In this document: piece by piece, positions 2,619-24,917 of the stretch
Position numbering within the stretch: position 1 is the first letter of the stretch
How the letters are laid out: each line of letters opens with the position of its first letter
Origin: a virus
Strand: one strand, 5' to 3'
IMG/VR virus record: IMGVR_UViG_3300020421_000064
Coordinates: 1-38,298 of that record
DNA: 38,298 bases
Translations under genes and position numbers: made by a program
Notes under the pieces: generated by a model
Told to the model about the DNA's origin: nothing
Database searches by the model: none
What the model saw: the letters and a program-made list of their open reading frames with translations, nothing else

Positions 2619-2773
2619 TATTCTGTTCCTTCTTTTTTAAAGTAATTTTCAGAATCGTATGGACTGTCTACAATATCTGTTAATGACTTCTCTATCATAT
2701 TATAATCTATATCTCCTGTTTGCCATTCTACATAATCATTATCGTGTGTTGCTTTATGTAAATCTTTTATCAT
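2618..2773 (-). CDS. Small acidic protein (51 aa) between fiber genes
   Basis: A short gene between the 2048-aa fiber and the 206-aa fiber-type protein. ATG 2773 overlaps the TGA of the giant fiber (ATGA), and its TAA overlaps the next ATG (TAATG), so it fits the coupled chain on both sides and fills an otherwise empty 151-nt gap. 51 aa, starts MIKDLHKATHDNDYVEWQTG and ends ENYFKKEGTE; acidic and helical. Not recognised. The position suggests a fiber assembly or attachment helper. The two perfect overlap junctions are the main support. Confidence 0.7.
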   Translation of the reverse strand: MIKDLHKATHDNDYVEWQTGDIDYNMIEKSLTDIVDSPYDSENYFKKEGTE

Positions 2774-5700
2774 ACTACCACAAGTGTTCCTGCTACATCT
2801 ACTGTACCTTCTATATCTAAAGGTCCTGCAGCAACTGTTCCTGTATTAGCACTTATTGAAAAGCTTTCTCCTGAAGCAAGTGTTGTTCTATGAATAAAGA
2901 AACCACCGCCTGCTGACATTGTGGCATTATTGTCAATAATCATTCTTTCAGTGCCACCTGTGTCAATTCTTACTTTGTCTTCGTCAGCACTTTCTTCTAC
3001 GTGAACTCTTGTATCGCCATCAGCATCTTCTATATTTGTAGGTCTTTGAGGTACAAAGTTTGATCCATCATAAACTAAGCTATCACCTGTAGCAAGTCCT
3101 GTTGTGCTTGCATCAGTTAAATCATTAACACCTACAGATCCTCCTGAGTCTGCCCAACTAATTGTTCCAGATCCATTTGTAGTGAGTACTTGTCCGTTTG
3201 TTCCTGCACCACCATTTATTTTAAGTTTTGCAGATTTAATGTCAAAGACACCATCCGATTCAATTCTTACTCTTTCAGTTCCTGCAGTAAAAATTCTAAT
3301 GTCATCAATATCAGAAGTTGTTTCTACCTGTATCTTTGTATCGTTATCATTATCTGAGAAAGCTGTAGCACTTGCACTTGTTGATGTAATTTGAATTGGA
3401 TCAACAGTTCCGTCTGCGAGAGTTACTTCTACATCTGTTCCTGTTGCCCCAAGGTTTAAGAAGTCAATATCATCTTCAGTACCATCTTTAAGTGTAAAGT
3501 CTAATGCACCAGTTAATCCACCTGATGCTCCCCCACCAATATTTGATTTAGCAACTTTTTTATATACTCCAGCACTTGTGTCATATACAATAAGTAGGTC
3601 ATCATCAGCAGGGGAGCTATCTGCAGTAAGACCTGTTGTGAAACTTGTCGCAAGACCAGTAGCTGTACCTTCAAAAGTTGCAGCTACGAATGTTTCAGAA
3701 CCAACAGTCCACTTATCTGTACTTTCATCCCAAACAAGAGTCTTATTAGCATCATCGCCTCTCTCAATTTCAATACCACCATTCTCTGAAGCAGAGCCAG
3801 TTGCATTGGAATTTAGAGTAATTGTATTATCAGCTAAGTTGATTGTTTCTGTATTGACAGTAGTTTGAGTTCCGGAAACTGTTAAGTTACCACTAACTAC
3901 TAAGTCGTTAAATGTTACATCGCTTGTTGTAGCTACAGCCTGTCCGATTGCTACTTCACCGGAACTTATTGTTACGCCAGTCCCTGCAGTTATGTGTGCT
4001 TGAACCTCAGAGGCACTAGGACCTGTATAGGTAATTACACCAGTACTTGAGTTATAAGCTAATGAACCATCGCCACCGCTATCTGTTACGCTAATAGAAC
4101 CTCTAGATCTAGCATCTGTGTAGTAAAGATTTGTAGATCCCTCTCCTATATCATCTGTATCAGCAGTAAAGTTTATGAATGCAGAGCCATCATATTTTAT
4201 TAATTGACCACTTGATGCAGAAGTAATAGTTGTGTCTGTCAAACCACTTAATGTAGCTGTAACATCTCCCGGTTCAAATCTTGAATTGCTTGAACTATAA
4301 ACTAATGCTTGACCATTTGTAACTCCTGAAGTAGTTACATCACTTAAATCTCCTGCAGCTACAGTTCCAAAGTCTATATCAACTTCGTTATTACCTGTAT
4401 CATCAGTAATTGTTATCTTTGCAGAACCTGCATTTAGTTTTTTAAACTGTAAGTCTTCTCCGACTTTACCATCAAAGATTCCTACACCTGCTGTACCAAT
4501 GTTAGAGGCTGTATTTGTTTCTCCTGATCCTGATAGTCCAGAGACAGAAGATAAAGCAAAAGCTCCTGCAGAGTTATCCCAAGTCATAACTTTTTGATCT
4601 TCATTAGAACCCGGTGCTGAGAACCCAACATTTGCTAAGTCTTCTATATTAGCTAAAGCTATTCTTGCATCAGCTCTAGCATTTGTATAATAAAGATTTG
4701 TTCCTTCTGATAAATCTGCTGTATCAAATCCAGATAAAGATACAGTTGCATCAATAGCACCATCGTTGGCATCATCATAAGCAAAAGAAATACCCGTATG
4801 GGATCCATTTGTGACAATTTGAGCGCCTACTATATCTTGTACTTGTTCATTACTTAATGAAGCAGTATTAGCAATTGTTAATGTTCCTGCTGAGTCATCA
4901 TAAGTGACTGATATATCAGTACCAGCAGTTATTAATGAAGCTACTTGATCATCTACTCTTTCATTAGTAAAATAAAGATTAGTTCCCTCAGATAAGTCTG
5001 AAGTTGAATGATTAGATATGTCTGATACAGTACCTGTAACATTTCCTGTAACATTTCCAGTTAAGTTACCTTCAAATGTTCCTGCCACAAATGTTTCAGA
5101 ACCAACAGTCCATTTGTCAGTTGTTTCGTTCCAAATTAAAGTTTTGTTAGTGTCATTTCCACGCTCAATTTCTATACCACCATTTTCTGTAGCAGATCCG
5201 GTAGCATTAGAGTTTATAAGAATTACATTGTCTGCTAAAGCTATTGTTTCAGTATTTACGGTTGTAGTTGTTCCTGATACAGTAAAATCTCCTGATACAG
5301 TTAAATCGTTAAATGTTACATCTGAAGTTGTGGCTACTGCTTGACCTATACTAAATTCACCTGATGATAATGTAACACCAGTTCCACCAGTAAAATGAGC
5401 TCTTACTTCAGACGCACTAGGTCCTGTATATGTTACAACCCCTGTTCCAGAGTTATAAGCTAAAGATCCGTCACCACCAGAATCAGTTACTGATATCGCA
5501 CTTCTTGCATCGCTATCAACATATTGAGTAATTGTTGTTGCTACTTCACCAGAACCAGATATAGTTATTCCAGTTCCACCAGATAAATGTGCTAATACTT
5601 CAGCTTGACTTGGACCGGTATAAGTGATTACACCAGTGCTTGAATTATAAGATAATGAACCATCTCCTCCACTGTCTGTAACAGATATAGCACTTCTAGC

Positions 5701-8700
5701 CCTTGCATTTGTGAAATAAAGGTTAGAACTACCTTCTGATAAAGCATCTGTATCACTGTCTGATAATGACAATCCTTGAACAGAAACGACACCATTTCCA
5801 CCCATACCAGAATGATTTGTGCAGTAGTAGTAAAGAGTATCTGCTGTAGCAGCATTTACAACTATTTGAGTATATGCTCCTGCATTTCCCGGAGTTCCAG
5901 ATGTAGTAACTTGAGTTGTATATTCACTACCACTATTATGTGTTCCGTCTTTTGTAGAAGATAATCTTATTGGGTGTCCACTGTTAGAGTTATCTCCTTG
6001 ATCAAATCGGTAAACTGTTCCCGGAACTAACTGAATACTTGCTGATGTTTCTCCATCTAAGTGATATTTATTACCACCGACATTTGCTACTGTTACAGCA
6101 AACTCAACTATTGCACTTCCTTGTACATCAAGAACACCGCCACCCATTCCTGAGTGATTTTGACATTTGTAGAATAATCTATCTGCAGTAGCACCATCTA
6201 CAACTATTTGAGTATAAGCGCCTGAAGAACCTGCAGTTCCATTTGTAGTAACACCTGTTGTGTAAGTAGTTCCATCTAAACTTTCAGATAATAAAAATGG
6301 ATGACCTGAGTTAGAGCCGTCTGATTGATTAAATCTGTATGTAACTCCCGGTACAAGTTTTACACTTGCAGAAGCTTCTCCATCTAAAAAGTATTTATTA
6401 CTTCCAGAAGCATTAGATACTGTTACTGCAAACTCTATTATTGCAGTATTGTCTTCAAAATTTATTGTCTTATTTGTTAAAGTATCTGTAGAACTTTCTG
6501 TAACTACTGTGCTATCAATAGATATTGCACCTGAAGAGAAATCAATACCTGTACCACCACTTAAGTAACTCTCTACTCTTGCATCTGTATAATATAAGTT
6601 TGTACCTTCAGATAAATCAGAAGTTGAATGATTTGAAATATCTGAAACTGTACCAGTGACATTTCCTGTCAAAGCTCCCTCGAAAGTCCCTGCAACAAAT
6701 GTCTCTGAACCTATAGTCCACTTATCTGTAGTTTCATTCCATATAAAAGTCTTATTAGTATCGTTTCCTCTTTCAATTTCTATACCTGCATTTTCTGTAG
6801 GTGATCCTGTTACATTGTTATTAAGAACAATAATATTGTCATCTACAGTAAGTGTTTCTGTACTTATGGTTGTTGTAGAACCTTGTACTGTTAAGTTTCC
6901 AGTTAAAGTTAAGTTTGTAAATTGAGGGCTATCACTTGAAGCAATAGCCTGACCAATTGCTATTTCACCTGAGTTAAATGTTATACCAGTACCTGCTGAT
7001 AAATGTGCTCTAACTTCAGAAGCAGAAGGACCTGTATATGTAAATATTCCTGTAGAGTTATCGTAAGATAAGCTACCGTCACCACCGCTATCTGTTACAG
7101 ATACAGAAGTTCTAGCTCTAGCTTGTGTAAAGTATTGATTAGTAGAACCTTCAGAGAGACTGTCTGTATCGTGATTTGATAATGAGGATACAGTACCAGT
7201 AACATCTCCTGTTATGTCTCCTGTTACATTACCAGTAACATTACCAATTAAGTCAGCAGTTACTTGATTAAAAATTACATTGTTACCAGTTCCTATTGCT
7301 TGTGGTATTGATATTTCACCACTAGATATTGTTATACCTGTACCACCAGTAAAATGTGCTCTTACCTCACTAGCAGATGGACCAGTATACGTTACAACTC
7401 CTGTACCAGAGTTATAGCTTAAGCTACCATCTCCGCCTGCATCAGACGCTGATATAGCACCTCTTGCTCTACCATCTGTATAATATAAATTAGTAGAGCC
7501 TTCAGTTATATTGTCAGTATCAAACTCACTAAAATTTACATCTATTGTAAGAGTGTTTCCAGTATCATTGTAAGTTGTGGTTATACCAGTTCCACCAACA
7601 AATAAGTTTTGTATATTATCTTGTAGTGCTTCTACTACTTCTGTTAAGTCAGTAGTAAAACTAAGAGTTCCAGCAACGTCATCATAAGTAATGTCTATAC
7701 CAGAAGTGCTAGATGCTGTAATTAAAGCTGCTACTTGATCGTCTATTCTTTCATTAAGGTCTGTTGTTATTTCAGATAAATCTGTAGTTATTGTAAATGT
7801 ATTTGCGTTGTCATCATAAGCAACGGTTACACCGTCACCACCGACAACCATACCTGAACCTATTCTGTCATCTATTCTTTCATTTAAGTCAGAAGTGATT
7901 TCAGATAAGTCAACAGTAAATGAAAGTGTTCCAGAACTTTCTGATATATCAACTCCTGCACCTCCATCAAAAGTGACTGTGTCTCCAAGTGATATAGCAC
8001 TTGTATTGCTACCATCAGTGACACTAAAAGAACTATTGGTAAAAGCACTATTAGGAATATTCGTAATAGTGTTTGAACTACCGCTAATTGTTTTGTTAGT
8101 AATCGTATCGGTAGAACTTTGCGTAAGTATTTCGTCATAAGATTGATTTTCTCCTAACACCCACCTGTTTGCTGACACATCGTAAAAAACTCTTGCATCA
8201 TCTGTATCTGAGGTTTCAACAATAATACCTGCATCTACTTCTCCGTTGCCATTGTTGAGTTTTACGAAAGCATCGTCTACTGTGACGATAGTTGCTTGTG
8301 AATTAATAATTTCTGTCTGTATATCTAAGTTGCCAGTAACAGTTAGGTTGTCAAATGTTGGCGAGTTGGAAGTAGTCCAATCACTTCCGTCACCAACTAT
8401 TATATAATTTGTTGTGGGCGTAAGCCCTGCAATAGTATCCAAATTAGCATCAAATGCTTGGACATTAGATCCTATTGCAAGACCTAAACTACTTCTTAAT
8501 GTACTTCCACTTTCTAAAACAAAATTTGTACCATCACCAATTACTACGTATCCATCACTTGGAGTTAATCCAGCTATATCTGCAAGCTGTTGGTCATATG
8601 CTTGAACATCTGTTCCTATCGTTAAACCCAAAGATGTTCTAGCTGTTGCACCAGATTCTGCAACCCAATTAGTTCCATCAGAAACAATAAATTTACTATC

Positions 8701-8916
8701 TTCGTGTGTTAACGCGGCTATGGTTGTAAGATCAGAATCGTATGCTTGTACATTTGTACCTATAGACATACCTAGTGCAGTTCTAGCACCTGCTGCTGTA
8801 ATTGCACCAGTACCACCTTTTGAAATTGCTATAAATTCAGTTGATTGATATTCAGAAAAACCTGTAATTGCACCATTACCATCTTTAATCGCTCTAATTG
8901 GGGTTTTAGCTGACAT
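2770..8916 (-). CDS. Giant repetitive tail fiber with two cupredoxin-like domains (2048 aa)
   Basis: 2048 aa, start coupled to the upstream stop by TAATG at 8916. Residues about 42-185 hold three ~48-residue repeats (SLGLTIG-x-x-VQAYD... DGTNWVxESG). From about 190 come beta modules in several copies: DSGGDGSLSYN...TYTGPSASEV (five copies) and IEIERGNDTNKT...ETFVAGTFEG (three clear copies plus one degenerate). GNVTG/GDVTG stretches link them. Residues about 820-1049 hold two tandem domains with GHP...C-x2-NHSGM signatures (listed separately). The C-terminus (HRTTLASGESFSISANTGTV) resembles ends of marine phage fibers. Low-complexity Ser/Thr/Gly/Asp composition and length point to a long side or central fiber. 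No proteolytic or chaperone domain is visible at its end. Confidence 0.9.
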   Translation of the reverse strand: MSAKTPIRAIKDGNGAITGFSEYQSTEFIAISKGGTGAITAAGARTALGMSIGTNVQAYDSDLTTIAALTHEDSKFIVSDGTNWVAESGATARTSLGLTIGTDVQAYDQQLADIAGLTPSDGYVVIGDGTNFVLESGSTLRSSLGLAIGSNVQAFDANLDTIAGLTPTTNYIIVGDGSDWTTSNSPTFDNLTVTGNLDIQTEIINSQATIVTVDDAFVKLNNGNGEVDAGIIVETSDTDDARVFYDVSANRWVLGENQSYDEILTQSSTDTITNKTISGSSNTITNIPNSAFTNSSFSVTDGSNTSAISLGDTVTFDGGAGVDISESSGTLSFTVDLSEITSDLNERIDDRIGSGMVVGGDGVTVAYDDNANTFTITTDLSEITTDLNERIDDQVAALITASSTSGIDITYDDVAGTLSFTTDLTEVVEALQDNIQNLFVGGTGITTTYNDTGNTLTIDVNFSEFDTDNITEGSTNLYYTDGRARGAISASDAGGDGSLSYNSGTGVVTYTGPSASEVRAHFTGGTGITISSGEISIPQAIGTGNNVIFNQVTADLIGNVTGNVTGDITGDVTGTVSSLSNHDTDSLSEGSTNQYFTQARARTSVSVTDSGGDGSLSYDNSTGIFTYTGPSASEVRAHLSAGTGITFNSGEIAIGQAIASSDSPQFTNLTLTGNLTVQGSTTTISTETLTVDDNIIVLNNNVTGSPTENAGIEIERGNDTNKTFIWNETTDKWTIGSETFVAGTFEGALTGNVTGTVSDISNHSTSDLSEGTNLYYTDARVESYLSGGTGIDFSSGAISIDSTVVTESSTDTLTNKTINFEDNTAIIEFAVTVSNASGSNKYFLDGEASASVKLVPGVTYRFNQSDGSNSGHPFLLSESLDGTTYTTGVTTNGTAGSSGAYTQIVVDGATADRLFYKCQNHSGMGGGVLDVQGSAIVEFAVTVANVGGNKYHLDGETSASIQLVPGTVYRFDQGDNSNSGHPIRLSSTKDGTHNSGSEYTTQVTTSGTPGNAGAYTQIVVNAATADTLYYYCTNHSGMGGNGVVSVQGLSLSDSDTDALSEGSSNLYFTNARARSAISVTDSGGDGSLSYNSSTGVITYTGPSQAEVLAHLSGGTGITISGSGEVATTITQYVDSDARSAISVTDSGGDGSLAYNSGTGVVTYTGPSASEVRAHFTGGTGVTLSSGEFSIGQAVATTSDVTFNDLTVSGDFTVSGTTTTVNTETIALADNVILINSNATGSATENGGIEIERGNDTNKTLIWNETTDKWTVGSETFVAGTFEGNLTGNVTGNVTGTVSDISNHSTSDLSEGTNLYFTNERVDDQVASLITAGTDISVTYDDSAGTLTIANTASLSNEQVQDIVGAQIVTNGSHTGISFAYDDANDGAIDATVSLSGFDTADLSEGTNLYYTNARADARIALANIEDLANVGFSAPGSNEDQKVMTWDNSAGAFALSSVSGLSGSGETNTASNIGTAGVGIFDGKVGEDLQFKKLNAGSAKITITDDTGNNEVDIDFGTVAAGDLSDVTTSGVTNGQALVYSSSNSRFEPGDVTATLSGLTDTTITSASSGQLIKYDGSAFINFTADTDDIGEGSTNLYYTDARSRGSISVTDSGGDGSLAYNSSTGVITYTGPSASEVQAHITAGTGVTISSGEVAIGQAVATTSDVTFNDLVVSGNLTVSGTQTTVNTETINLADNTITLNSNATGSASENGGIEIERGDDANKTLVWDESTDKWTVGSETFVAATFEGTATGLATSFTTGLTADSSPADDDLLIVYDTSAGVYKKVAKSNIGGGASGGLTGALDFTLKDGTEDDIDFLNLGATGTDVEVTLADGTVDPIQITSTSASATAFSDNDNDTKIQVETTSDIDDIRIFTAGTERVRIESDGVFDIKSAKLKINGGAGTNGQVLTTNGSGTISWADSGGSVGVNDLTDASTTGLATGDSLVYDGSNFVPQRPTNIEDADGDTRVHVEESADEDKVRIDTGGTERMIIDNNATMSAGGGFFIHRTTLASGESFSISANTGTVAAGPLDIEGTVDVAGTLVVV
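3660..7460 (-). repeat. Diverged tandem coding repeats within the giant fiber
   Basis: Two module families alternate. Module B (SVTDSGGDGSLSYN through TYTGPSASEVRAH and GGTGI) occurs near 7300-7460, 6960-7110, 5530-5690, 5340-5500 and 3960-4100. Module A (ADN-x-I-x-LNSNATGS through IEIERGNDTNKT and GSETFVAGTFEG) occurs near 6650-6880, 5060-5270 and 3665-3870, with a degenerate copy near 8100-8345. Protein identity between copies is higher than DNA identity, so the repeats are old enough for synonymous drift. The repeat order suggests duplication of an A+B block on each side of the cupredoxin pair. Confidence 0.75.
5770..6457 (-). other. Two tandem cupredoxin-like domains encoded inside the giant fiber
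   Basis: Residues ~820-935 and ~935-1049 of the fiber are a duplicated ~115-residue module (EFAVTV-x-N...KY-x-LDGE-x-SAS...LVPG-x-x-YRF-x-Q). Each copy has a GHP His and a Cys-x2-His-x2-Met cluster: H872/C918/H921/M924 and H981/C1032/H1035/M1038. This is the ligand set and order of type 1 (blue) copper sites, and the His-to-Cys spacing (46 and 51) is near that of plastocyanin (47). Cys-x2-His-x2-Met occurs in amicyanin. The residues are seen directly; copper binding is inference. Confidence 0.6.
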
Positions 8917-10037: not shown

Positions 10038-10294
10038 TAGTCACTTTTTTTCATTCTATTGAAATCGTAGTTGCCACCTAATTCGTCAAATTCCTCTCTT
10101 AATTTATTTATTTCCAATATTGTTGATTTATAGTTGTATTCCCATTCTGGATGATTAGGATCTTCAACTATAGGTTCATCAAATGATAACTGATACAGAG
10201 ATTGCTCTAACTCAGTTAACAGTTGATAAAGTATAGATATTTTAGCTTCTACAGTCAGTATTTTATACTTAAATGTGTTATCTTCTTCAGACAT
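10037..10294 (-). CDS. Small coiled-coil protein (85 aa)
   Basis: 85 aa, starts MSEEDNTFKYKILTVEAKIS. Helical heptads around residues 12-38 and 58-72 suggest a coiled coil, separated by a Pro/acidic segment (DEPIVEDPNHPEWEYNYK). It is coupled to the hub gene by TAATG at 10294, with a GGAGGG Shine-Dalgarno inside the end of the hub gene, and to the next gene by TAATG at 10037. Not recognised. The position between hub and fiber is compatible with a fiber adaptor or assembly factor. Confidence 0.75.
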   Translation of the reverse strand: MSEEDNTFKYKILTVEAKISILYQLLTELEQSLYQLSFDEPIVEDPNHPEWEYNYKSTILEINKLREEFDELGGNYDFNRMKKSD

Positions 10295-13200
10295 TATCCC
10301 TCCAATGTTTCTATTCTAGCAGTTAAGTCTGAAACTTGAGTGCTTAATTCTTGTACTGCTTTTGTTAACACAGGTATAAGTTCTACTGTTCTTAACCCAT
10401 ATTGTTCAACAGGTGTTTCTACTTCTACTAATTCTCCATCTTCATTTTCTTCATATTGAGTTTCGTAAGAAGCTTGTGTGTACATCGCCATATTTTGGTC
10501 AGAACTTTTATGAGTAATTAATTTTTCTTTTATATCTTGTGCAGAAAAACCTAAATGTGTTCTAACTCCATCATCTTTCCAAGTAAATTCAATAGGTGTT
10601 AAATCATTTATAAAATCTATACCTAAATCAGTATTAACAATATTTTCTTTTAGAGTTATATCAGAAGTTTGTATAGACGAGTTTGTAGCGTAAACATCAT
10701 CCCATCTAGCAAAACTAGCACCTAAGTCAAAAGTGTTGTCTGGAGAAGGTCTTAGGTCATCGTAAGAAGTGTTTTGTGCAGTTGTTGAACGAAACTTACT
10801 AGAACCATTTGGTTTTATATCAATAAAAGAAGAAGCAAAATCTATAAGACTTGAACTATCTTCATCTCTTACTTGTGTTCCTTGTAAATAAGAATCTGCA
10901 CTAATGTAACTGCCAGACCTTATAAATGAACCGAAAGTTCCAGATGATGTTGCTACAATTGCACCAGTAATTCCTAAGTTAGAGGCTGTTAAACTAGTAA
11001 ACCCTGCTGAACCTGTAAAGTAACTAGCATCTATTGTTCCACCAGATATAGTATCTGCATTAATAGAAACAGCTGTTACTTTATTAAACTCAACACTATC
11101 AATTTTGTCATTAGTTACTGCATTACTTTGAATCTTGTTACTACTAATAGCATTATTTTCTATTTGATTTCCATTTAATGAGCCTGTAGTTATATTATCT
11201 GCATTTAAATTAGTAACAGTAATATTGCTGCCATTTATGGTTCCACCAGAAATTATGTCTGCGGATATACTTCCACCAGATATTTGGTCAGCAGAAATAG
11301 AACCAGTAAATGTACCGCCAACAGCAGAAAGTGTTCCTGAGAAAGTTCCTGTAGCAGCACTAAGTGCTCCTGAGAATGTACCACTTGCTCCAGTTATGTC
11401 TCCCCTAAAGTTACCATCATTGAACTCAACATCACCATTAGATTTAATTTGAAAGCCAGCTGAACCACTAGAAAAGTTACTAGATTCTATTGTTGAGTTT
11501 GTTCCTGAGTCTGTAGCTAATGTAATTGTTTTACCAGATATAGAACCAGAAGTAATTTTACCTGCTTCTAAAGTATCAATATTTGCATTTGTTACTTGAG
11601 CTGTTCCAATATGTGCAGTCGTAATGACTGCTGTTCCAATATGTGATGAATCAATTAAAGAATTAGCACCACCGCTATCAAAAACATCTGAAGGTTCTGA
11701 TTCCCTACCAGATATATTTACTGCTGAAACTCTATAATAAACTGTATCGTTACTTGTAAGATTTAAAGAGTCTAGATTTATAGTTCCAACAACAGGAATG
11801 TTTAAATCAACGTTACCGTTACTAGCAGGTAACATACCTAAATAGTAAGTATCTCTATCTGAATCAGAAACTTTTTTATTTGTACTGTCGTAAGACAATG
11901 TAAATGAAGATGTTGCACCATAAACATTTAAATGTGAAATATCTCTATCTAAAGTAAAATTAACAGGCGAACTTATAACATTCCCATCGTTATCTTTTAC
12001 TTGAGCAAGTTTGTGTTCTATCTGAGCTCTTAACAATCCATTAGCTAAACTGCCGAATGTATTTTCTGGTTTAGCAGGCTTATTAGGAGCAATACTTGAT
12101 CTTGGTATTTGTATAGCTGCAACTTGAACAACATCAGAACTATGATTTTTTAAATCAAAAGCAAATAGTCTTACTGTATAAGTAAATCCTATATTTAAGT
12201 TTTCTATAACATATCGTGATTGTTCAAAATCTACAGAAGCAGATTGATAGTCAGATGTATCTAAAGCTACATCATTGCTGTCTAAAATACTATTGCCATC
12301 TCTATCGGAAACCATTCGCCATTGTATTAAGAAATGACTTCCGTCAAGTATGGTTGTACCATTTTTATTTTGAGGTTTTGTCCAGTCTAATTTTATAAAT
12401 CCTTTTACGGCACCAGCACCATCTCTATATGTACCTACAGAATTATCAAAGCCAACTGTGCCATCGGATGGTTTAGTAGGTTGATCAGGAACAGTAAAGT
12501 CATCATTACTATCTACAGCTATAACAGAAGCTGCAGTAGAAAAGTCTGTTGATAATGTTTGCCCTACATCACCTATTTCTAAACTGATATCTCCTGTCTC
12601 AAAAATAATGTAATCTGTTAAATCTGTAATTACACCAGTAGAGCTGTTTCTATAATAAACACCCATACCATCTTGTACAGGGTAAGACATACCTACTACT
12701 CTTATTTTTTCTGGGTTGATAGTAGAACCTTGATATGTAACTTGATGGATACTTCTACTCTCTAAAGCTGCTTTAGATGAAGTATCTTCAAAACCAACTT
12801 CTGGGTCGTATATGAATATTTTGTCACCAACTTTAAAAGAACCAGAAATATCATAACCTTCAAGAGAAACATTAACTGTTTTTTTAAGTCTGTTGTATTC
12901 ACTGAGTGCTTTATTAGCTCTTGCTTGAAAGTTTGACTCAGTTGCACTTGCATCTTTTACTACTTGTATTCTTTTTAAGTTTGCATCAAATAAATCTTTA
13001 TACTCATTAACAGAAACTGTAGCTTCCGCCATAGAAACTTCTTTAGTTGCACCTGTAGGAATAAGCTCTACTTTAGTAACATATTCTTCTGCATCAAATC
13101 CTGTTGTAATTCCAGCAGGTATGAAACCTTCTATATTTGGATCTTCTCCCTGTCCTTGTCTAATAATGATTGCATCAGGATTATTAGTATGTCCGTTAAA

Positions 13201-13782
13201 TAATACTTCCGGTCTACCAGCATAAATAAATCCTTCATTATCTACATAGAACTCGCAATCAAAATGTTCTGCTACATATTTTACAGCTCTATATGTTGAC
13301 TCTAAATAATGATCTCCTGTGTAAGTCGTTGTTCCTGTTGTAGGATTAGTAATACTTCCTGATTTAGTTCTTACAGCTTGTTGAGCTGCTGTGTCACCAG
13401 TTCTTAATATTCCATAAGGTGTGCTGGTTGTTCTGTCTAAGACATCACTTAATGAATCAGCTGTATAGCTTCTTACAGCACCACTACCAGATGTTTCAGA
13501 AACAACTAAACCTCTAGAATCAGTATCTCCCAAGTAAACCATAGTTCCTTTACCACTTACTTGAAAAGAATCTAAATCGTATTGTAAATTTTGTACTACT
13601 CCTACATATCTTGCAGTTTTAATCATATCTTGATTAGATATAGTATTTTCATCTACACGAGTACTATGAATTAATATTTGTCCCCAAGGGTCAATAGAAT
13701 TTATTATAGAGTTTGGTGTTGTTGTTGCATTGAGCTGTACTGTAAAAGTACCTGATGCCATAACCTTTTCTTGAACACTCAC
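10294..13782 (-). CDS. Tail hub/central tip protein with C-terminal S74 chaperone domain (1162 aa)
   Basis: 1162 aa. The N-terminal ~400 residues resemble tail-hub/Tal-type proteins that close the tail tip. Residues ~430-700 contain fibronectin-III-like segments (e.g. GFTYTVRLFAFD; TVYYRVSAVNISGRESEPSD). About 705-1000 is a Gly/Ser/Thr/Ile beta-fiber of short repeats (GTFSGALSAATGTFSG, SISADQISGG). The C-terminus is an intramolecular chaperone (S74): SDITLKENI at S1040-D1041, HLGFSAQDIKE, and terminal helix VQELSTQVSDLTARIETLEG. In this family self-cleavage occurs at the Ser-Asp, releasing a trimerised fiber. The start is GTG 13782 overlapping the upstream stop (GTGA); ATG 13761 (residue 8) is an alternative. 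Confidence 0.85.
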   Translation of the reverse strand: MSVQEKVMASGTFTVQLNATTTPNSIINSIDPWGQILIHSTRVDENTISNQDMIKTARYVGVVQNLQYDLDSFQVSGKGTMVYLGDTDSRGLVVSETSGSGAVRSYTADSLSDVLDRTTSTPYGILRTGDTAAQQAVRTKSGSITNPTTGTTTYTGDHYLESTYRAVKYVAEHFDCEFYVDNEGFIYAGRPEVLFNGHTNNPDAIIIRQGQGEDPNIEGFIPAGITTGFDAEEYVTKVELIPTGATKEVSMAEATVSVNEYKDLFDANLKRIQVVKDASATESNFQARANKALSEYNRLKKTVNVSLEGYDISGSFKVGDKIFIYDPEVGFEDTSSKAALESRSIHQVTYQGSTINPEKIRVVGMSYPVQDGMGVYYRNSSTGVITDLTDYIIFETGDISLEIGDVGQTLSTDFSTAASVIAVDSNDDFTVPDQPTKPSDGTVGFDNSVGTYRDGAGAVKGFIKLDWTKPQNKNGTTILDGSHFLIQWRMVSDRDGNSILDSNDVALDTSDYQSASVDFEQSRYVIENLNIGFTYTVRLFAFDLKNHSSDVVQVAAIQIPRSSIAPNKPAKPENTFGSLANGLLRAQIEHKLAQVKDNDGNVISSPVNFTLDRDISHLNVYGATSSFTLSYDSTNKKVSDSDRDTYYLGMLPASNGNVDLNIPVVGTINLDSLNLTSNDTVYYRVSAVNISGRESEPSDVFDSGGANSLIDSSHIGTAVITTAHIGTAQVTNANIDTLEAGKITSGSISGKTITLATDSGTNSTIESSNFSSGSAGFQIKSNGDVEFNDGNFRGDITGASGTFSGALSAATGTFSGTLSAVGGTFTGSISADQISGGSISADIISGGTINGSNITVTNLNADNITTGSLNGNQIENNAISSNKIQSNAVTNDKIDSVEFNKVTAVSINADTISGGTIDASYFTGSAGFTSLTASNLGITGAIVATSSGTFGSFIRSGSYISADSYLQGTQVRDEDSSSLIDFASSFIDIKPNGSSKFRSTTAQNTSYDDLRPSPDNTFDLGASFARWDDVYATNSSIQTSDITLKENIVNTDLGIDFINDLTPIEFTWKDDGVRTHLGFSAQDIKEKLITHKSSDQNMAMYTQASYETQYEENEDGELVEVETPVEQYGLRTVELIPVLTKAVQELSTQVSDLTARIETLEG

Positions 13783-15146: not shown

Positions 15147-18100
15147 TTATCTTCCTAGTATAGAGGAGCTACTACCTTCCTTCTCTAAGTTAACTAAAGC
15201 TTTTCTAATAGACATAGCTGCTTTTCTTGCAGACTGAGGATCTGAAGGTACTCCTGTAACATTAACATTAAGATTATTAACTGTAACGCCCCCGCCTACT
15301 CCTCCAATACCGGTAGGAGTTACTCTTGTTCCTTTTGGACCAACACTAATTATTTCTGGACCAAATTCTCCGACTAATGCTCTTTTACCAATATTTGCAA
15401 ATCCACCTTTATACATCACATCGTCAATAGTTACACTGCTGCTTGGTGGTTTAATTGGAGGTACTGAAACTTCTGTATTTTCAGCATTAATAGCTAATTG
15501 AGATCTTATGTATTCTATGTCATATAGTTGTCTTGCTATTTTGTCAAATATATCGTGCATTCTTTGACCTGATGTCTCTGCTCTTGCTACAAGATTATCA
15601 ATTGCAGTTTCTGGCATACCCACTGCTAGAGCTATGTTTCTAAATTGTTTTTCGCCTTCTGGTCCTAAAGAAATAAGCTCATCTGCAAGTTCCATTAATT
15701 TTAACTGAGTTTGAAATTGTTCAAACTTAGCAGACTGAACAGCTGCTTGAGCTATAGCTTCTTTATCAGCTTGATCAGTAATGTTATCTTGTATGTCTGA
15801 AATCTTACCTTGTGCATCTGCAACTTCGTCAGAAGCTTCCTTTTGCATAACTTTCATATTTTCAATAAGATCTTTTTGGAATTGAATTTGAAGTTCCATA
15901 ATGTCTTTTTGAAGCTTAAGCCTATTTTCAAAAGAATCTCTGTCTTGAAAGCCATCAATGCCTTCTGTAGTTCCTTGCATTTCAGCTAAAGTTTCTCTAG
16001 CTGCTTGAAGTTCATCTTCAGAAGCAACACCTCTTTTAACTGCTTGCTCTAAAAATTCTATGTCTCTTTTTGCTGATTTAAGTGCAAGTCTCTCAGAAGC
16101 AGTATCAGTTTTATTAGCATCGCTAATCATATTTGCTAAACTTAACTGTTGTTTCATTAAGTTTAATTTTTCAAAATCAGTTTGCACTCCTTCAGTACCA
16201 AATTTTTTAAGTGTATCTGAAAGTTCCTTATTAGCGTCTACTAATTGTTCTGTTAATTTTAAACCATTTTTTCTGGTTGTTTCTAATTCTCTTTCAGCTT
16301 TTCTAACTGCTAATGTTCCATTAGCAACACTATCTAGCCCTTCAGCAAATCCTGTATATAAACCAAATATTTCTGACAGTTCTGTTTTAGTAGTAGCTAA
16401 TCCTGATTTGTATTTATCACTACTAAAATCTATGTTAGTCTTCTCTACTAGTTTTTCAGCTTGATCTACAGCTGGAGAAACAACATCTTGCATAGTCGAA
16501 GCTAGTTCATCTTTTTTACTTCTTACTCCTGCAATAATACCATCAATAAGTGGCACTCCAATACGGTTAAATGTAACCATAGATGGAGAACTTATTGCAA
16601 ATGTTACTTCTAATCCTTCTATACCTTTATTAACAGTTTCTATTAGAGCTTCTCTAATAGCTTTATCACCAGCTCTAACACCTTCTGCCAAACCGTCTAC
16701 TAAATTTTCACCGGTTCCGAAGAAAGCGTCTCTAAGTTCTGCATCAGAAGCACCTAACTCCTCAGACATATCTGTTAGTTCTCTAAGAAAACTTGTATTT
16801 GATTCTGCTATTTTTCTTTCTGCTTCTTCAGCAAGTAGAGGACTATTTAGAAAGTCTTGTGCGACTGCTAATGCTTTAGGTCCTTCTTTAGCAAGCATTC
16901 CAGCAAGAGCTACGAAACCAGCTTCTTGTAACTGAGTAATAGTTGCCATAAACTCAATACCAAGTGCTGCTTGATCTTGAAGGTTTCTTGTTACCTCAGA
17001 AGCTGTTGCATTAACTTGATCTGGTATATCTTCAAATAAACTGACTATTGATTCCGCAGATTTTTTAGCTATGGCATTAACTTTTTCAATAGCTATTTCT
17101 CTTTCACTTAAATCAAATAATGTAGCTTCAGCATCTTGGCGAGCTTGTGTAGCCATTTGTTCTTGAATAGCTAGTTCTGCTTGTTTTACTCTTAATGAAT
17201 GTTCTGTATTCGCTATTTCGTCTTCGGAGATACCTCTTTTCTCCATCTGTCTTTTTCCTAATTCTCTTTCAGCTTGTATTTCAGATACTAATTTAAGCAT
17301 TTGACCTTCATTTAAAATCTCTAAACCTTCTGCTTGTATTACTTTTTGTGCAGCAATTTCAGCAGATGATTTTTGAGCTTCTGTAAATGCGTCTTCTAAA
17401 TCTACAACTTCTCCAGATAATTTTTTAAGTTTATTTATATCGTTAATAATTTTTTGTTGCTCTTTAGTTGGTGTTGCACCAAAAGAAAATTGAAATTCAT
17501 CAAAACCAGCTTCTGTCAAATCTGCTTCTAATGCTTCTATAGCTGGTTGAATTTGTTCTTGGTTAAATTTTTTAATTAATATTTCAGGATCAGAACCACC
17601 AATAAGCACACTGTTTAATAATTCATCTACAGCGCTCTTATCAAGATTGGTATCTGCAGTAATTCCTGTAAAAAATGCACCTACTGAACCACCAGAACCT
17701 GTAAGTTTTTCTATTTGATTTTTTATTATAAAGTCAATACTGTTATCTAGTCCTTCTATCTGACCGTCTATAAATTCTATATCTGCTTCTAACTGTTCTA
17801 AGTTATTTTTTTGTGATTCAGTCATATTAGGAGTATTGTTTTTAAATTTGTCTGCTTCTTCCTGTAATACTTTTCTCCTCTCTTGAAGAGCTTGTTTAGC
17901 TTTAGCAGTTCCTGCACCAAAATTTTCAGCAGTTCCAATTGCATCTCCAAAAGCCAATGACCCCATAGTTCCACCTATATCTAATGCAGCAATTTCTCTT
18001 CCAAGTTCTGAAAATAATGCGGTAACTAGAGCGATCGAACCTGCTATGATAACAAAATTTGTAGGATTTATTACTGTTTGTAATATAGCAAATGATTTGG

Positions 18101-19397
18101 CAAGAAGTGAAGTTATTGTTGCGCCTTTTATCATAGCCGCACCTAAAGCTTTAAATCCAAGAGAGGCTGCTAATATCTTTAAGGATAGTCTCCCAAGATT
18201 AATTAAAGCAGGACCTGAAATATTTGTTACAAATGCTTGTAAGAAAAACACAACTCTTCTAACAACTGGTAAAAATTCATCTGCCATACTCATAGTTAAT
18301 TCTTTAACTTGATTTCTAAGTAATACCATTTGTTGAGCTGTTGTTGTAAATTTCTTAGCTGCTTCTACTTGTAACGCAATATTTGCATCAAATGCTGTAC
18401 GTGAAGTTTGTAAAACTTGTGTTAATAAATCTCCAGATGCTGCTAAACCATTTATTGCTAACTGTGTTCTTCTTTGTGATAAGTTAAGTTTTTTAAGAAT
18501 GTCTTGAACTTTAAGACCTCTGTCTCCTGCAGTTTCAAGTCCTTGTATAAATTGAGCAACTGCCATAGCTGCATCTTCTCCAAAGAGCTGTGCAAACTCC
18601 TTCATTTCAACTCCAGCTACTTTTGCAAATAATTGAAGTTGTTCATCTCCGTTTTGTATAGCTCTTTCTATTTCTTGAAAGACACGAGAAATAGCAGTAC
18701 CACCAGCTTGTGCTGGAACACCAATAGCTTGTAAAGCAGTAGCAAAAGCTAAAGCATCAGCAGTAGAAGCACCAGTTTGTTTAGCTGCAGTAGCAATACG
18801 CAAGACAGTTGTAATGATTTCATCTTCAGTCGCTGCAAAGTTGTTACCTAAATCTACTAAAGCAGAACCTGTTCTTTCAAAAAAGTCAGACATAGCTTCT
18901 TCAGGTATGTTTGCAATAGCAGCTAATCTAGCTAAAGCTAATGCAGCAGTTTCTGTACTTAATACAGTAGCAACACTTAATTTAGATACAGTGTCTATAA
19001 AAGCTGCAAGTGACTCAACTCCAATACCTAACTGACCACCAAGCTCACCTATTCTAGCTAACTCTGTTGCAGCAATTGGAAGTTCTGTTGCTAGGTCTCT
19101 AATTTGACCAGAAAGCATTTCTAATGTTTGACTATCAGCATCTACAGTTTTTCTAACACCTGCAAATGCGTCTTCAAAAGCTATTAAAGATCTAACTCCT
19201 AGTACTGTTGCTGAAGCTATAGTACCTAGAGAAGCAGCAGCGCCCACCATACCCATAGTTGCAACTCTTGAAATATTTTGACCGGCTCTCTGTATACCAG
19301 AAAGCTCTTTAGTCATATCTTTTGTAATCTCATCAATGTCAACTAGCTGGGCTGTAATAGCCAGCCTCAGTTGCATTTCTTGATCTACACCTGCCAT
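15147..19397 (-). CDS. Tail tape measure protein (1416 aa)
   Basis: The longest tail-module gene except the fiber, placed directly after the tail assembly chaperone. Residues ~90-290 match the TP901-type tape-measure core (LATELPIAATELARIGELGG..., GVPAQAGGTAISRVFQEIER, ALQAIG). Hydrophobic segments lie near residues 390-470 (LLAKSFAILQTVI; FVIIAGSIALVTALFSELG), expected for a protein ejected through the membrane. Long coiled-coil stretches follow (about 620-740 and 1030-1270). The C-terminus has VGEFGPEIISVGPKGTRVTP, typical of these proteins. By the usual ~1.5 angstrom per residue rule the tail would be about 210 nm. No lytic transglycosylase or peptidase domain is obvious. Confidence 0.93.
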   Translation of the reverse strand: MAGVDQEMQLRLAITAQLVDIDEITKDMTKELSGIQRAGQNISRVATMGMVGAAASLGTIASATVLGVRSLIAFEDAFAGVRKTVDADSQTLEMLSGQIRDLATELPIAATELARIGELGGQLGIGVESLAAFIDTVSKLSVATVLSTETAALALARLAAIANIPEEAMSDFFERTGSALVDLGNNFAATEDEIITTVLRIATAAKQTGASTADALAFATALQAIGVPAQAGGTAISRVFQEIERAIQNGDEQLQLFAKVAGVEMKEFAQLFGEDAAMAVAQFIQGLETAGDRGLKVQDILKKLNLSQRRTQLAINGLAASGDLLTQVLQTSRTAFDANIALQVEAAKKFTTTAQQMVLLRNQVKELTMSMADEFLPVVRRVVFFLQAFVTNISGPALINLGRLSLKILAASLGFKALGAAMIKGATITSLLAKSFAILQTVINPTNFVIIAGSIALVTALFSELGREIAALDIGGTMGSLAFGDAIGTAENFGAGTAKAKQALQERRKVLQEEADKFKNNTPNMTESQKNNLEQLEADIEFIDGQIEGLDNSIDFIIKNQIEKLTGSGGSVGAFFTGITADTNLDKSAVDELLNSVLIGGSDPEILIKKFNQEQIQPAIEALEADLTEAGFDEFQFSFGATPTKEQQKIINDINKLKKLSGEVVDLEDAFTEAQKSSAEIAAQKVIQAEGLEILNEGQMLKLVSEIQAERELGKRQMEKRGISEDEIANTEHSLRVKQAELAIQEQMATQARQDAEATLFDLSEREIAIEKVNAIAKKSAESIVSLFEDIPDQVNATASEVTRNLQDQAALGIEFMATITQLQEAGFVALAGMLAKEGPKALAVAQDFLNSPLLAEEAERKIAESNTSFLRELTDMSEELGASDAELRDAFFGTGENLVDGLAEGVRAGDKAIREALIETVNKGIEGLEVTFAISSPSMVTFNRIGVPLIDGIIAGVRSKKDELASTMQDVVSPAVDQAEKLVEKTNIDFSSDKYKSGLATTKTELSEIFGLYTGFAEGLDSVANGTLAVRKAERELETTRKNGLKLTEQLVDANKELSDTLKKFGTEGVQTDFEKLNLMKQQLSLANMISDANKTDTASERLALKSAKRDIEFLEQAVKRGVASEDELQAARETLAEMQGTTEGIDGFQDRDSFENRLKLQKDIMELQIQFQKDLIENMKVMQKEASDEVADAQGKISDIQDNITDQADKEAIAQAAVQSAKFEQFQTQLKLMELADELISLGPEGEKQFRNIALAVGMPETAIDNLVARAETSGQRMHDIFDKIARQLYDIEYIRSQLAINAENTEVSVPPIKPPSSSVTIDDVMYKGGFANIGKRALVGEFGPEIISVGPKGTRVTPTGIGGVGGGVTVNNLNVNVTGVPSDPQSARKAAMSIRKALVNLEKEGSSSSILGR

Positions 19398-21620: not shown

Positions 21621-24600
21621 TTATCTATCTTCAAATCTTAACACAATAGAGCCATCGTTAGCATAGCTTTGCTTAAAGCCTCCAGTTGCTCTGTTTCTAG
21701 GTTTTTCAATCTTTTCATTATTAATACCACTTTCTAAAAACATTAAATCTTCTAGTAATGAAGCTGTAGATACATCATCAGCCGTTCTTCTAGAAGTAAC
21801 AGGTGTAATTTTACTTCCTGATTGATCTTCATACCTTACTGTTGTTTTGCTTCCTTGTTTTGTAAACCTTTGCCTTAATACAAGTTGTGCAGTTGGTAGC
21901 TGCGGATCTTTATAAACTAAATCTACTGCACCGTTTTTTCTTCTATTTACAATTGGTTTTATGGTTCTACCTCTATTTGAATGACCACCACCTAATTTAG
22001 GTTTATGAACTTTTGCAGTATAAGCAAACAATCCTAATTCTTGTGCTCTATCTTTTGATATGTCAGTTTTGAAAAAGAAAGATAAAGTTGGTAAAGCCTG
22101 TCCTTGATCATCAGCAGAAGCAATAGCTTGAAAAGTATCTGATTGAATCATATCTTTATTTACAATATTTCCCCTTGAAGCAATAACACCTGAAGTACCA
22201 GAAACATTAACACCTTTAAATATTGAAGGCAATTTATTTTTATTATATTCTTCTACTGCATTAATACCAGCTTTTTTAGCTTGAGCTCCTCTACCTGTTC
22301 CAAACCTCTTACCTTGTATAGCAACAACTCCACCACCCTGAGATGAAAAAATACTTTGTTCTTTTGCTCGTTCTTTAAATAAATTATTTAATGTTTTCTT
22401 TTCACTTCTAAGGTCAGATGATATAGATTTACGCTCTTTCTCAAGTTTTTTTAGTTTTGTTGTAGATAGTGCTGTCTTGCTAATAGTTTTTTCACCTGTA
22501 AGATCTGCTATTTTCATTTGAGGCTGAGGTAAAACTGGTATTGCTTCACCTTTTTTAAGTGGACCAAAGCCATCTATATATGTATCAGCATTTGCTTTAT
22601 GTTTTCCAACTTTCCAAAATATTTGATCTACTTCAGAATCGGTAGGTTTCACATAACCTTGTTGTTTCAAACGTTTTGTTGCTGCTCTAACATCTATCTT
22701 GTCCGTATTGGCTGGTTTGACTAAATCATCAAGTCTATTTGCTTCAGCTCTTACTTTATCTTCTGCTTTTGATAATCTAGTTTCTAATTTTTGAACATTT
22801 CTTTGTTTTGATATAATTTGTTTGTCTGTATTGCTGACAACAGTAGCTCTTCCTTCACCATCTATCTTGACTTCAAAGAATCCTTTTCTAGTTCTAACTG
22901 TCTTTGTTTGTGCTTCCATATATGCAATATGTGGATCATTCAAACGTTGACCGGTAGCGTTTAACTGTCGTCTGAAAGCTCTTTTTTCATTAGCATTGGT
23001 TAATGTGTGTAGATGCTCTCTATTTGATTTTCCTGTAGCTCTTCTGCCCGCTCCTGCAACAGTTGTTTTATTATTTACATAAGTGTATGGAAGTTGTTTA
23101 TTAACTTCGTTTACGATTGCTTTTACAGCATCTACTTCTGCTTGAACTCTTGCTGCATCTTGAGCGCTAGTAGCAATGACAGTTTGACCTCTAGCACCAC
23201 TACCACTTACTTTAGAACCAGTAGCATATCCACCTTGACCTTTAGCTTTTAAAGTTTGATTTATAACGTCAGTAGCATCTTCACCTCTAGATAAGTAATT
23301 AGGATCTCCTACTGCTCCTCTACCTATAGATTCTATTTCTAATTCTTTTACAAATTTATCTACATCTAAAACTTCTATTTCATACTTACCAGTTTTAGTG
23401 TCCCTAACAGACCGTATAGTTCCTTCTCTTTGCATTTTTTGTAGTTTAGTTTTTACAGTATCGGTCATAACAACTTCACCTAAATCAAATCTATAATCTT
23501 TTTGTATAGATACTTTAGATGGTTCTAATACTGTATTCTTGTAATGACTGTTAGCTCCTCTACCAGCTTTCCATTTACCATTTACATTTTTTAGTTCTCT
23601 CATATCTGCATAGATAGGAACACGACCAGTTCCTGTTGTTATAGCATAAGGAATTTTTTCAACGGTTTGTTCTTTAACTCTTGTACGTCTTTTGTTAGTT
23701 GGTTTTGTTTTTCTGAGAACTTCTTTTTCAGTAATTTTTTCATAATACTCATCACCATACATAATTCTCATAGCTGCCATAGCACCATCTTCTTGAGCAT
23801 CTTGAAACATTCTTCCAGTCTTATCATATTCTTTTACACCGAAATGTTTTTGGTAGTATTCCATAAAGTCTTGATTACCAGCTTCACGTGAAGAGTATGA
23901 TGTTGAAACTGTTTTACCACCTTTGTTAGCTTTTTGCATTTCTATTTGTTTTTCTAAGGCTTCTCCATCTTTTGATAACCATATTTTCTGTAAGCGTTTA
24001 TGTGTTTGAGAATAAGAACGAGAAACAAATTTAGAAGGATCCATTTTCATATTTTTAGCAGCTATTTCATCAAGTACACTTTGAGGAGTGAATACTTCGT
24101 ACATCTTTTTTATTACTGGTTTATAAGTTCTTTCTATAAATTCAAGAGATCTTTCTGCAAAAAAAGTGGGACCATAAGGTTTATTCTTAGTAGGATCTAG
24201 TGGGTTGAACATCATACCACCATAATTAGCTATCCAAACATAAGGAGCTTTATCTGCAGGACCTTCTGGATTATTTCCACCTACAGAAACTGCCCATTTA
24301 GCTATTACATTTTCTTCAGGATTTCTCTGAACAGGATGAATCATTACAGATTCTGATAAGTTGTCTGGACTAAAATCTACTCTTGTTCCACCGCTATTCA
24401 TACTAAATTCTGTTCTAGGAGCTAGTGCTCTTAACGAAAATGCTAATTGATTTTGCATTTGTATAAATAAACTTCCACTCTCCATATCAAATATTTCTTT
24501 ATGGGCTTTGATAGTAGCTTTAGAACCAAAAACTTCTAAAACATTAAAACGTTTTGTTTTTTTGTGAATAGCTTTATTTAAATAACTACCTATCTGAGCA

Positions 24601-24917
24601 CGAGCTAAACGAAGTACAACGTTGTTAGTGTTAGGCAAGATTGCATTAACAGCTAAACCACCCAACCTTCCTTTAACACGGTTGTTAATACGAGCACCAA
24701 CTTTTCCTTTAGCTAGAGCGTTTATATCTCTACCTGCTTTTTGTAAACTTAAAGCTTTTCCACGTCCTGACCTTAAACCTCTAAATGAGCCGGGAGATAA
24801 AGATAAACCAAAACCTGCTGCTTTAGATAATGTAATAACAGTCGAGGATATCTTATTAGATACAGATTGATTTCTGATCTTCCTAGGATTTTTTTTAGTT
24901 GTTTTGCTTTTAGACAA
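21621..24917 (-). CDS. Giant basic protein with gp10-like N-terminal part (1098 aa)
   Basis: 1098 aa and strongly basic, starts MSKSKTTKKNPRKIRNQSVS. Residues ~130-275 resemble the HK97-gp10 family of head-tail joining proteins: QNQLAFSLRALAPRTEFSMN, APYVWIANYGG, and PTFFAERSLEFIERTYKPVI. Family members are normally about 100-180 aa; here the domain has a ~130-residue basic front and ~820 residues behind it. The C-terminal part has helical/coiled-coil stretches (about 700-740 and 800-850: KLEKERKSISSDLRSEKKTL) and basic, Gly-rich ends. No enzyme motif recognised. Possible roles: connector plus internal DNA-contacting or ejected protein. Function unproven. Confidence 0.75.
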   Translation of the reverse strand: MSKSKTTKKNPRKIRNQSVSNKISSTVITLSKAAGFGLSLSPGSFRGLRSGRGKALSLQKAGRDINALAKGKVGARINNRVKGRLGGLAVNAILPNTNNVVLRLARAQIGSYLNKAIHKKTKRFNVLEVFGSKATIKAHKEIFDMESGSLFIQMQNQLAFSLRALAPRTEFSMNSGGTRVDFSPDNLSESVMIHPVQRNPEENVIAKWAVSVGGNNPEGPADKAPYVWIANYGGMMFNPLDPTKNKPYGPTFFAERSLEFIERTYKPVIKKMYEVFTPQSVLDEIAAKNMKMDPSKFVSRSYSQTHKRLQKIWLSKDGEALEKQIEMQKANKGGKTVSTSYSSREAGNQDFMEYYQKHFGVKEYDKTGRMFQDAQEDGAMAAMRIMYGDEYYEKITEKEVLRKTKPTNKRRTRVKEQTVEKIPYAITTGTGRVPIYADMRELKNVNGKWKAGRGANSHYKNTVLEPSKVSIQKDYRFDLGEVVMTDTVKTKLQKMQREGTIRSVRDTKTGKYEIEVLDVDKFVKELEIESIGRGAVGDPNYLSRGEDATDVINQTLKAKGQGGYATGSKVSGSGARGQTVIATSAQDAARVQAEVDAVKAIVNEVNKQLPYTYVNNKTTVAGAGRRATGKSNREHLHTLTNANEKRAFRRQLNATGQRLNDPHIAYMEAQTKTVRTRKGFFEVKIDGEGRATVVSNTDKQIISKQRNVQKLETRLSKAEDKVRAEANRLDDLVKPANTDKIDVRAATKRLKQQGYVKPTDSEVDQIFWKVGKHKANADTYIDGFGPLKKGEAIPVLPQPQMKIADLTGEKTISKTALSTTKLKKLEKERKSISSDLRSEKKTLNNLFKERAKEQSIFSSQGGGVVAIQGKRFGTGRGAQAKKAGINAVEEYNKNKLPSIFKGVNVSGTSGVIASRGNIVNKDMIQSDTFQAIASADDQGQALPTLSFFFKTDISKDRAQELGLFAYTAKVHKPKLGGGHSNRGRTIKPIVNRRKNGAVDLVYKDPQLPTAQLVLRQRFTKQGSKTTVRYEDQSGSKITPVTSRRTADDVSTASLLEDLMFLESGINNEKIEKPRNRATGGFKQSYANDGSIVLRFEDR

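Follow-up and report, generated by a model that had tools for sequence, protein, structure and literature searches.

Tandem cupredoxin-like domains with predicted type-1 copper sites in a putative phage tail fiber

In cells, blue copper proteins serve as electron carriers or as domains of enzymes. The small members usually carry Asn or Ser after the first ligand histidine, and one of their ligand histidines usually lies near the surface; in amicyanin, the ligand loop is spaced C-x2-H-x2-M, while stellacyanins have an axial Gln instead of Met. Multicopper oxidases carry Pro after the first ligand His, and their ligand loop is longer than C-x2-H-x2-M. On the viral side, Ig-like domains in the tail and head proteins of phages are mobile beta-sandwich modules of the particle surface. 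Here, we place beside these systems a tandem pair of repeats from a phage structural protein, which are likely to be virion-borne type-1 (blue) copper domains, each with a full ligand set.

The phage repeats share with the small blue copper proteins (plastocyanin, pseudoazurin, amicyanin, and rusticyanin) the predicted fold, the order of the ligands, and a Cys at the end of a strand, and with amicyanin in particular the C-x2-H-x2-M loop. Unlike those proteins, they score below the Pfam cut-off, carry Pro after the first His (GHP), and lie in tandem within a 2048-aa fiber. Multicopper oxidases and two-domain laccases have in common with them the fold and the first-ligand His-Pro; in contrast, the phage domain is without a known trinuclear site and has the C-x2-H-x2-M loop in place of the longer oxidase loop. 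The N-terminal cupredoxin of three-domain copper nitrite reductase (6tfo, 2dv6), the best match in the second of two structural comparisons at 19% identity, is a domain of a cellular enzyme. Phage Ig-like domains are likewise mobile beta-sandwich modules on virion surfaces, but lack such a metal site. Domains in three cyanophage proteins—the C-terminal part of gp9, gp7, and T4-GC 345—belong to the same family as the fiber repeats, a membership judged by HMM, or by eye for those that the HMM did not detect; the site is likewise intact in gp9 and in the first copy of gp7, whereas the second gp7 copy and T4-GC 345 are site-less.

The window, by which we mean the whole stretch of DNA analysed, comprises 38,298 bases (G+C 0.355) of virus record IMGVR_UViG_3300020421_000064. 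Its large open reading frames lie on the minus strand and encode a terminase, portal, protease, major head protein, head-tail adaptor, a protein matching Ig-domain and major tail families, a tape measure protein (15147..19397; PHROG 13339, E 4.7e-76), and tail fiber or tail tip proteins, among them the neighbor of the fiber discussed here (10294..13782; PHROG 7121 tail fiber protein, E 6.3e-15). Because it holds this set of head, tail, tape measure, and fiber/tip genes, we take the window to be that of a long-tailed phage, and the relatives of the phage indicate that it is probably marine. Three further observations concern neighboring minus-strand genes: the end of the 10294..13782 protein resembles, by eye, an S74-type chaperone; a 1098-aa protein between the head and tail genes (21621-24917) has no PHROG match at E 0.001; and a 213-aa protein among the head-tail genes (26055-26696) matches endonuclease VII/HNH and Lar-like families.

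Both domains reside in a protein of 2048 residues (8916..2770, minus strand), encoded by the last large tail gene, on the same strand as, and beyond, the tape measure and tail fiber/tip genes. It matches PHROG 697, a structural protein filed under head and packaging, over 10 stretches (E 2.4e-46), and the tail fiber family PHROG 30742 (E 1.7e-37), for which the best stretch falls on domain 1. Homology to fiber and structural proteins, together with a position in the tail cluster, argues for a phage tail fiber. There are two Cys in the 2048 residues, Cys918 and Cys1032, and both are predicted copper ligands. The initial annotation had proposed a copper- or redox-sensing fiber, or a metal-stabilized fiber tip; the sensor or tip is unsupported, the pair occupying residues 826-1048, in the middle of the protein, and relatives occurring in baseplate proteins.

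Domain 1 (residues ~826-934; 6115..6441, minus strand) is delimited by an HMM in which the ligand positions were masked (residues 825-934, E 1.3e-36) and by a two-domain model; domain 2 (residues ~935-1048; 5773..6114, minus strand) by the same masked HMM (residues 935-1050, E 9.3e-48), a confident model, and cupredoxin matches in the PDB. Residues 820-1049 correspond to window positions 6459..5770; the extent first given for the pair, 5770-6457, needs a small correction, since the repeats span residues ~826 to 1048 and domain 1 begins at about 6441 rather than 6457. In domain 1, the predicted ligands are His872 (codon CAT, 6301..6303, minus strand) and the loop Cys918-x2-His921-x2-Met924 (6145..6165, minus strand), all in conserved columns; in domain 2, they are His981 (CAC, 5974..5976, minus strand) and Cys1032-x2-His1035-x2-Met1038 (5803..5823, minus strand). 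Reading out the codons placed all eight residues exactly where they had been assigned. The His-to-Cys spacing is 46 in domain 1 and 51 in domain 2, the C-x2-H-x2-M loop is present in both, and both repeats thus display the type-1 ligand order His...Cys-x(2-4)-His-x(2-5)-Met/Gln. A chance motif was ruled out in two ways: H-x(44-52)-C-x2-H-x2-M occurred in none of 20,000 shuffles of the fiber, with C-x2-H-x2-M in a single shuffle, and the full ligand pattern was absent from 1,302 further open frames, each 150 codons or longer, in the fetched loci (362,911 aa), a control set drawn from six frames and hence containing many non-genes.

Structure prediction gives both repeats the Greek-key beta-sandwich barrel of cupredoxins. 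Domain 2 was modeled with a mean pLDDT of 93.8 and a pTM of 0.87 from an alignment of 86 single domains, being 86 of 87 non-redundant copies (one cut copy was omitted) from loci found partly via the ligand motif. The two-domain model, from 19 sequences, reached pLDDT 81.8 and pTM 0.57, and cupredoxin or multicopper-type folds were matched in both of its halves, with domain 1 matched over model residues 4-114. Foldseek searches of the PDB with the domain 2 model returned as the best 50 rows cupredoxins, multicopper oxidases, copper nitrite reductases, and one factor VIII, which we take to be a relative of the cupredoxin fold; the five rows at E<=0.001 were all rusticyanin (best 4.6e-4). The second structural comparison of domain 2 gave the copper nitrite reductase N-terminal domain (Z 9.5, rmsd 2.5, 98 residues), rusticyanin (Z 8.7, rmsd 3.1, 106 residues), and multicopper oxidases and two-domain laccases (Z ~8, rmsd 2.7-2.8, 100 residues), with the tool's own caution that a Z below 8 may reflect merely a common arrangement. 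The ligands fall at the canonical places: in both models, the next-to-last strand has the Cys at or close to its end, and the His and Met lie in the loop preceding the last strand, while the first ligand His is placed just ahead of a strand. A predicted fold other than a cupredoxin barrel would have spoken against the initial annotation; the predicted models and structural matches are cupredoxin-type. The structural matches also led us to reject a plain Ig-like or antibody-like sandwich.

In sequence-based searches, the pair retrieved from the PDB weak rows only, comprising two antibody chains, protein G, and a blue copper protein at E 0.98; the 86-member profile retrieved one weak row, a phage capsid protein (E 0.22); and the best of eight matches to the gp9 domain was copper nitrite reductase (E 0.13), the other seven being mostly antibody chains. 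The domain scores 18.3 bits against Pfam PF00127 Copper-bind, for which the cut-off is 21.2, and so we do not file it as a member by sequence; one of the 86 family members reaches E 0.01 with that model. Against the NCBIfam plastocyanin model TIGR02656, the score is 11.6 bits (cut-off 87.85), and PF25489 (At5g54830-like) matches four of eight relatives weakly, below its cut-off. An hhalign comparison with three proteins above the Copper-bind cut-off, from Bacteroidetes, Prochlorococcus, and SAR11 genomes, gave a probability of 89.4 (E 2.1e-6), with H, C, H, and M all aligned on their counterparts, in agreement with the earlier suggestion that the ligand order is that of type 1 copper proteins.

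In the first set of viral relatives, the four ligands are complete in 110 of 111 copies, and the exception is changed in all four. Because the ligand motif had served in part to find the members of this set, two further scans were made with query fragments taken from before the first ligand (N-terminal) or from between the first and second (middle), as was a survey with the ligand-masked profile. Each of the three viral-contig scans kept 80 loci, out of at least 593, 514, and 417 relatives. With identical copies counted once, the loci found with N-terminal fragments carry H, C, H, and M (HCHM) in 55/55 complete copies and those found with middle fragments in 68/69, copies cut by a contig end (2/57 and 2/71, respectively) having been dropped; with identical copies included, the N-terminal set comprises 92 HCHM and three cut copies, and the middle set 84 HCHM, one DCHL, and two cut. 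In the DCHL copy, L191, the first His and the Met are gone and the Cys and second His remain; this copy sits within an intact cluster and is invisible in the cluster count below. The ligands are therefore not variable in close homologues, where variability would have spoken against the initial annotation; among farther relatives, entire clades have lost the site.

The ligand-masked survey yielded 413 domains, which fell into 186 clusters at 85% identity. Four rows with fewer than 70 filled positions were omitted beforehand: two cut copies, the second copy in ACG-2014a gp7, which is site-less, and one part of an S-BM3 hit that was split in two, the other part of which carries C-x2-H-x2-M. HCHM is found in 169 clusters and HCHQ in three (L156, L170, L173), where the axial Met is replaced by Gln and the other three ligands are intact; the remaining 14 are site-less. 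When axial Gln is accepted as a ligand and a gap is counted as a loss, 172 clusters have lost none of the four, none has lost one or two, four have lost three, and 10 have lost all four. If ligands were lost independently, 41.9 clusters would be expected to lack one ligand, 4.7 two, 0.23 three, and 0.0 all four, a comparison that does not amount to a formal test because clusters are related. The site-less clusters retain 7-16 of 18 other conserved positions, so the fold does not depend on the ligands. On a tree computed without the ligand columns (89 rows: 74 intact, 15 lost), the intact/lost label requires six changes, at least three of which are forced by the starred branches, a count made with one row labeled otherwise. 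In essence, these alignments indicate that the predicted site is selected and lost as a unit, and that the fold outlives it.

Cyanophages illustrate both states of the domain. Read by eye, the C-terminal domain of marine T4-like cyanophage gp9 is an intact family member in 10/10 records, and the first copy in gp7 is intact in 8/8. The second gp7 copy has lost the Cys, second His, and Met in 7/7, some of these copies retaining a His close to the first ligand position, and tail proteins of the T4-GC 345 kind are site-less in all 11 that were read. These names come from annotation for gp9 in S-CAM22 and ACG-2014a, for gp7 in S-CAM22, and for T4-GC 345 in S-SM1 and S-MbCM6; in other records, gp9 and gp7 were assigned by position, size, and the tblastn listing of the gp9 domain, and T4-GC 345 by size, position, or likeness, with S-WAM1 and S-SZBM1 standing slightly apart from the rest. 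All 11 records with a site-less T4-GC 345-kind protein carry an intact site in another protein, gp9 in nine and a protein of 495-500 aa in two. A site-less and an intact copy coexist within one protein in ten cases (L028, L138, L159, and the gp7 of seven cyanophage records), and a family match was present in 22/22 phage records searched whole. Site-less forms are common in cyanophages, so the module can be of use without copper, a point against the copper reading.

The family is large and mostly marine, and occurs in phage fibers and baseplate proteins as well as in some ocean bacteria. A tblastn search with the domain pair matched 300 of 50,697 phage records; the names of 288 contain Synechococcus, Prochlorococcus, or cyanophage, and the remainder, except two, are SAR11, Methylophilales, or marine virus records; the gp9 domain matched 337 records, 329 of which are cyanobacterial by name. 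At least 593 stretches with relatives were found by the viral-contig scan, and 68 matches at E<=0.001 in a library of predicted viral structures. The open reading frames at the viral loci, many of them cut, hold one copy in 166 cases, two in 32, and three in one. Carriers among virion proteins include fibers, gp9, gp7, an annotated peptidase S8, and a structural protein encoded near the portal. The NHSGMGG phrases to which the initial annotation pointed in marine phage structural proteins belong to this cupredoxin family. Plasmids gave no match in a search with one family member.

Cellular genomes contributed 64 loci, some of which resemble phage contigs. In the SAR86 order, 91 of 199 genomes hold a match, strong to weak and in some cases possibly on phage contigs, and the domain also occurs there in open frames of 3,259 to 3,684 residues. 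SAR86 proteins of ~170-190 residues and an Actinomarina protein combine a start that appears lipoprotein-like by eye with the domain and the same ligands. In four from SAR86 (L111, L118, L127, L132) and the one from Actinomarina (L106), the domain is the main or last part, which makes them candidate copper proteins of the cell surface in major ocean bacteria. In another lipoprotein-like SAR86 protein, L133 (571 aa), the domain is found close to the C terminus and follows a region, perhaps a metallopeptidase, that contains an HEYFH stretch.

Given the predicted fold and ligands, it is probable that the domains bind copper. Each would hold one copper ion that locks the two ligand loops together, producing a rigid module on the fiber exterior, and one ligand His near the surface may make contact with a partner on the cell. 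Against this reading, the cytoplasm in which a phage protein folds is an unnatural place for copper loading; since the fiber is made in that reducing compartment, the metal would enter after lysis or come from sea water. Also weighing against it are the Pro after the first His, the sub-threshold Pfam score, the partly motif-derived alignment behind the model, and the two ligands lost in L191. The persistence of the fold without ligands implies that the site, where kept, serves something besides folding. Because the site is kept beyond the needs of folding and the module is reused across virion and cell proteins, we favor a metal-stabilized module for display or docking. As to the use of the predicted site, this stabilized module or docking surface is our first guess, somewhat better than even; a redox trigger or sensor comes second and is unlikely, and copper capture, third, is more unlikely still.

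The strongest competing explanation is that these are cupredoxin-fold modules that bind sugars or proteins of the host surface in the manner of Ig-like domains, the metal site only stabilizing the fold. A general-purpose display module would be expected to occur, as this domain does, in various virion and cell proteins; forms without the site persist, and six of the 86 members show weak matches to the carbohydrate-binding family CBM_4_9, below the cut-off where one is given. Stability alone demands no metal, however, given that a clade of site-less copies persists, yet the full ligand set is found in 172 of 186 clusters; we consider this explanation less likely than not.

Mimicry of the host is also conceivable, the module having been taken from the surface cupredoxins of marine bacteria and docking on a partner of these proteins, be it a donor, an acceptor, or a copper importer. 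This would be the copper counterpart of the Ferrojan horse proposed for iron, and is attractive because marine bacteria bear the same domain on lipoprotein-like proteins: those of SAR86 and Actinomarina carry it with its ligands, nearly half of the SAR86-order genomes match, strongly to weakly, and viral and cellular rows are intermixed on the tree. The tree is, however, poorly resolved (47 of 86 inner branches are open), phage and cellular trees resolve too weakly to answer in which direction transfer ran, and the baseplate copies in gp7 and gp9 are not expected to be receptor binders, all of which leaves mimicry an unlikely account.

Less likely again is a trigger that responds to redox or copper, in which the fiber or baseplate is altered when the state of the copper changes, and its release is thereby timed. 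Such a role fits the intact sites of gp9 and of the first copy in gp7, which are connector and wedge proteins in the baseplate of cyanophages, and T4 gp9 takes part in the trigger; on the other hand, the same module sits in proteins without a known trigger role, and cupredoxin sites change little between redox states. Finally, retention of the ligands by descent in a recently spread domain, without selection for metal, would suit a mobile family with many closely related copies, but is highly improbable, as the 74 intact rows diverge widely (mean pairwise identity 0.40 outside the ligands, 5th percentile 0.25) and the 14 site-less clusters each lost three or four ligands together.

The kind of domain is already known; it is the intact sites in phage fibers and baseplates that are new relative to the open-access literature searched, in whose titles and abstract openings no description of phage fiber or baseplate cupredoxin domains was found, and two passages of PMC10792529 are unrelated to them.

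The wider prospect—a speculative one, which we think rather doubtful—is that many ocean phages are cuproproteins, with working blue copper centers in their tails that act in attachment or triggering and render infection copper-dependent. T4 baseplates contain 18 copies of gp9 and six of gp7; at these copy numbers, the baseplate of a marine T4-like cyanophage would carry ~24 copper ions in gp9 and gp7, and the present phage would bear two per fiber chain. By rough estimate, 24 ions on every one of 10^10 particles per litre amount to ~0.4 pM, and so the virions would be no copper reservoir. The number of copper atoms per particle is a prediction that is cheap to measure, and for which intact and site-less sister domains provide natural controls. 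If the reading is true, copper would be a component of the virion, and infection would be tied to a scarce and toxic metal.
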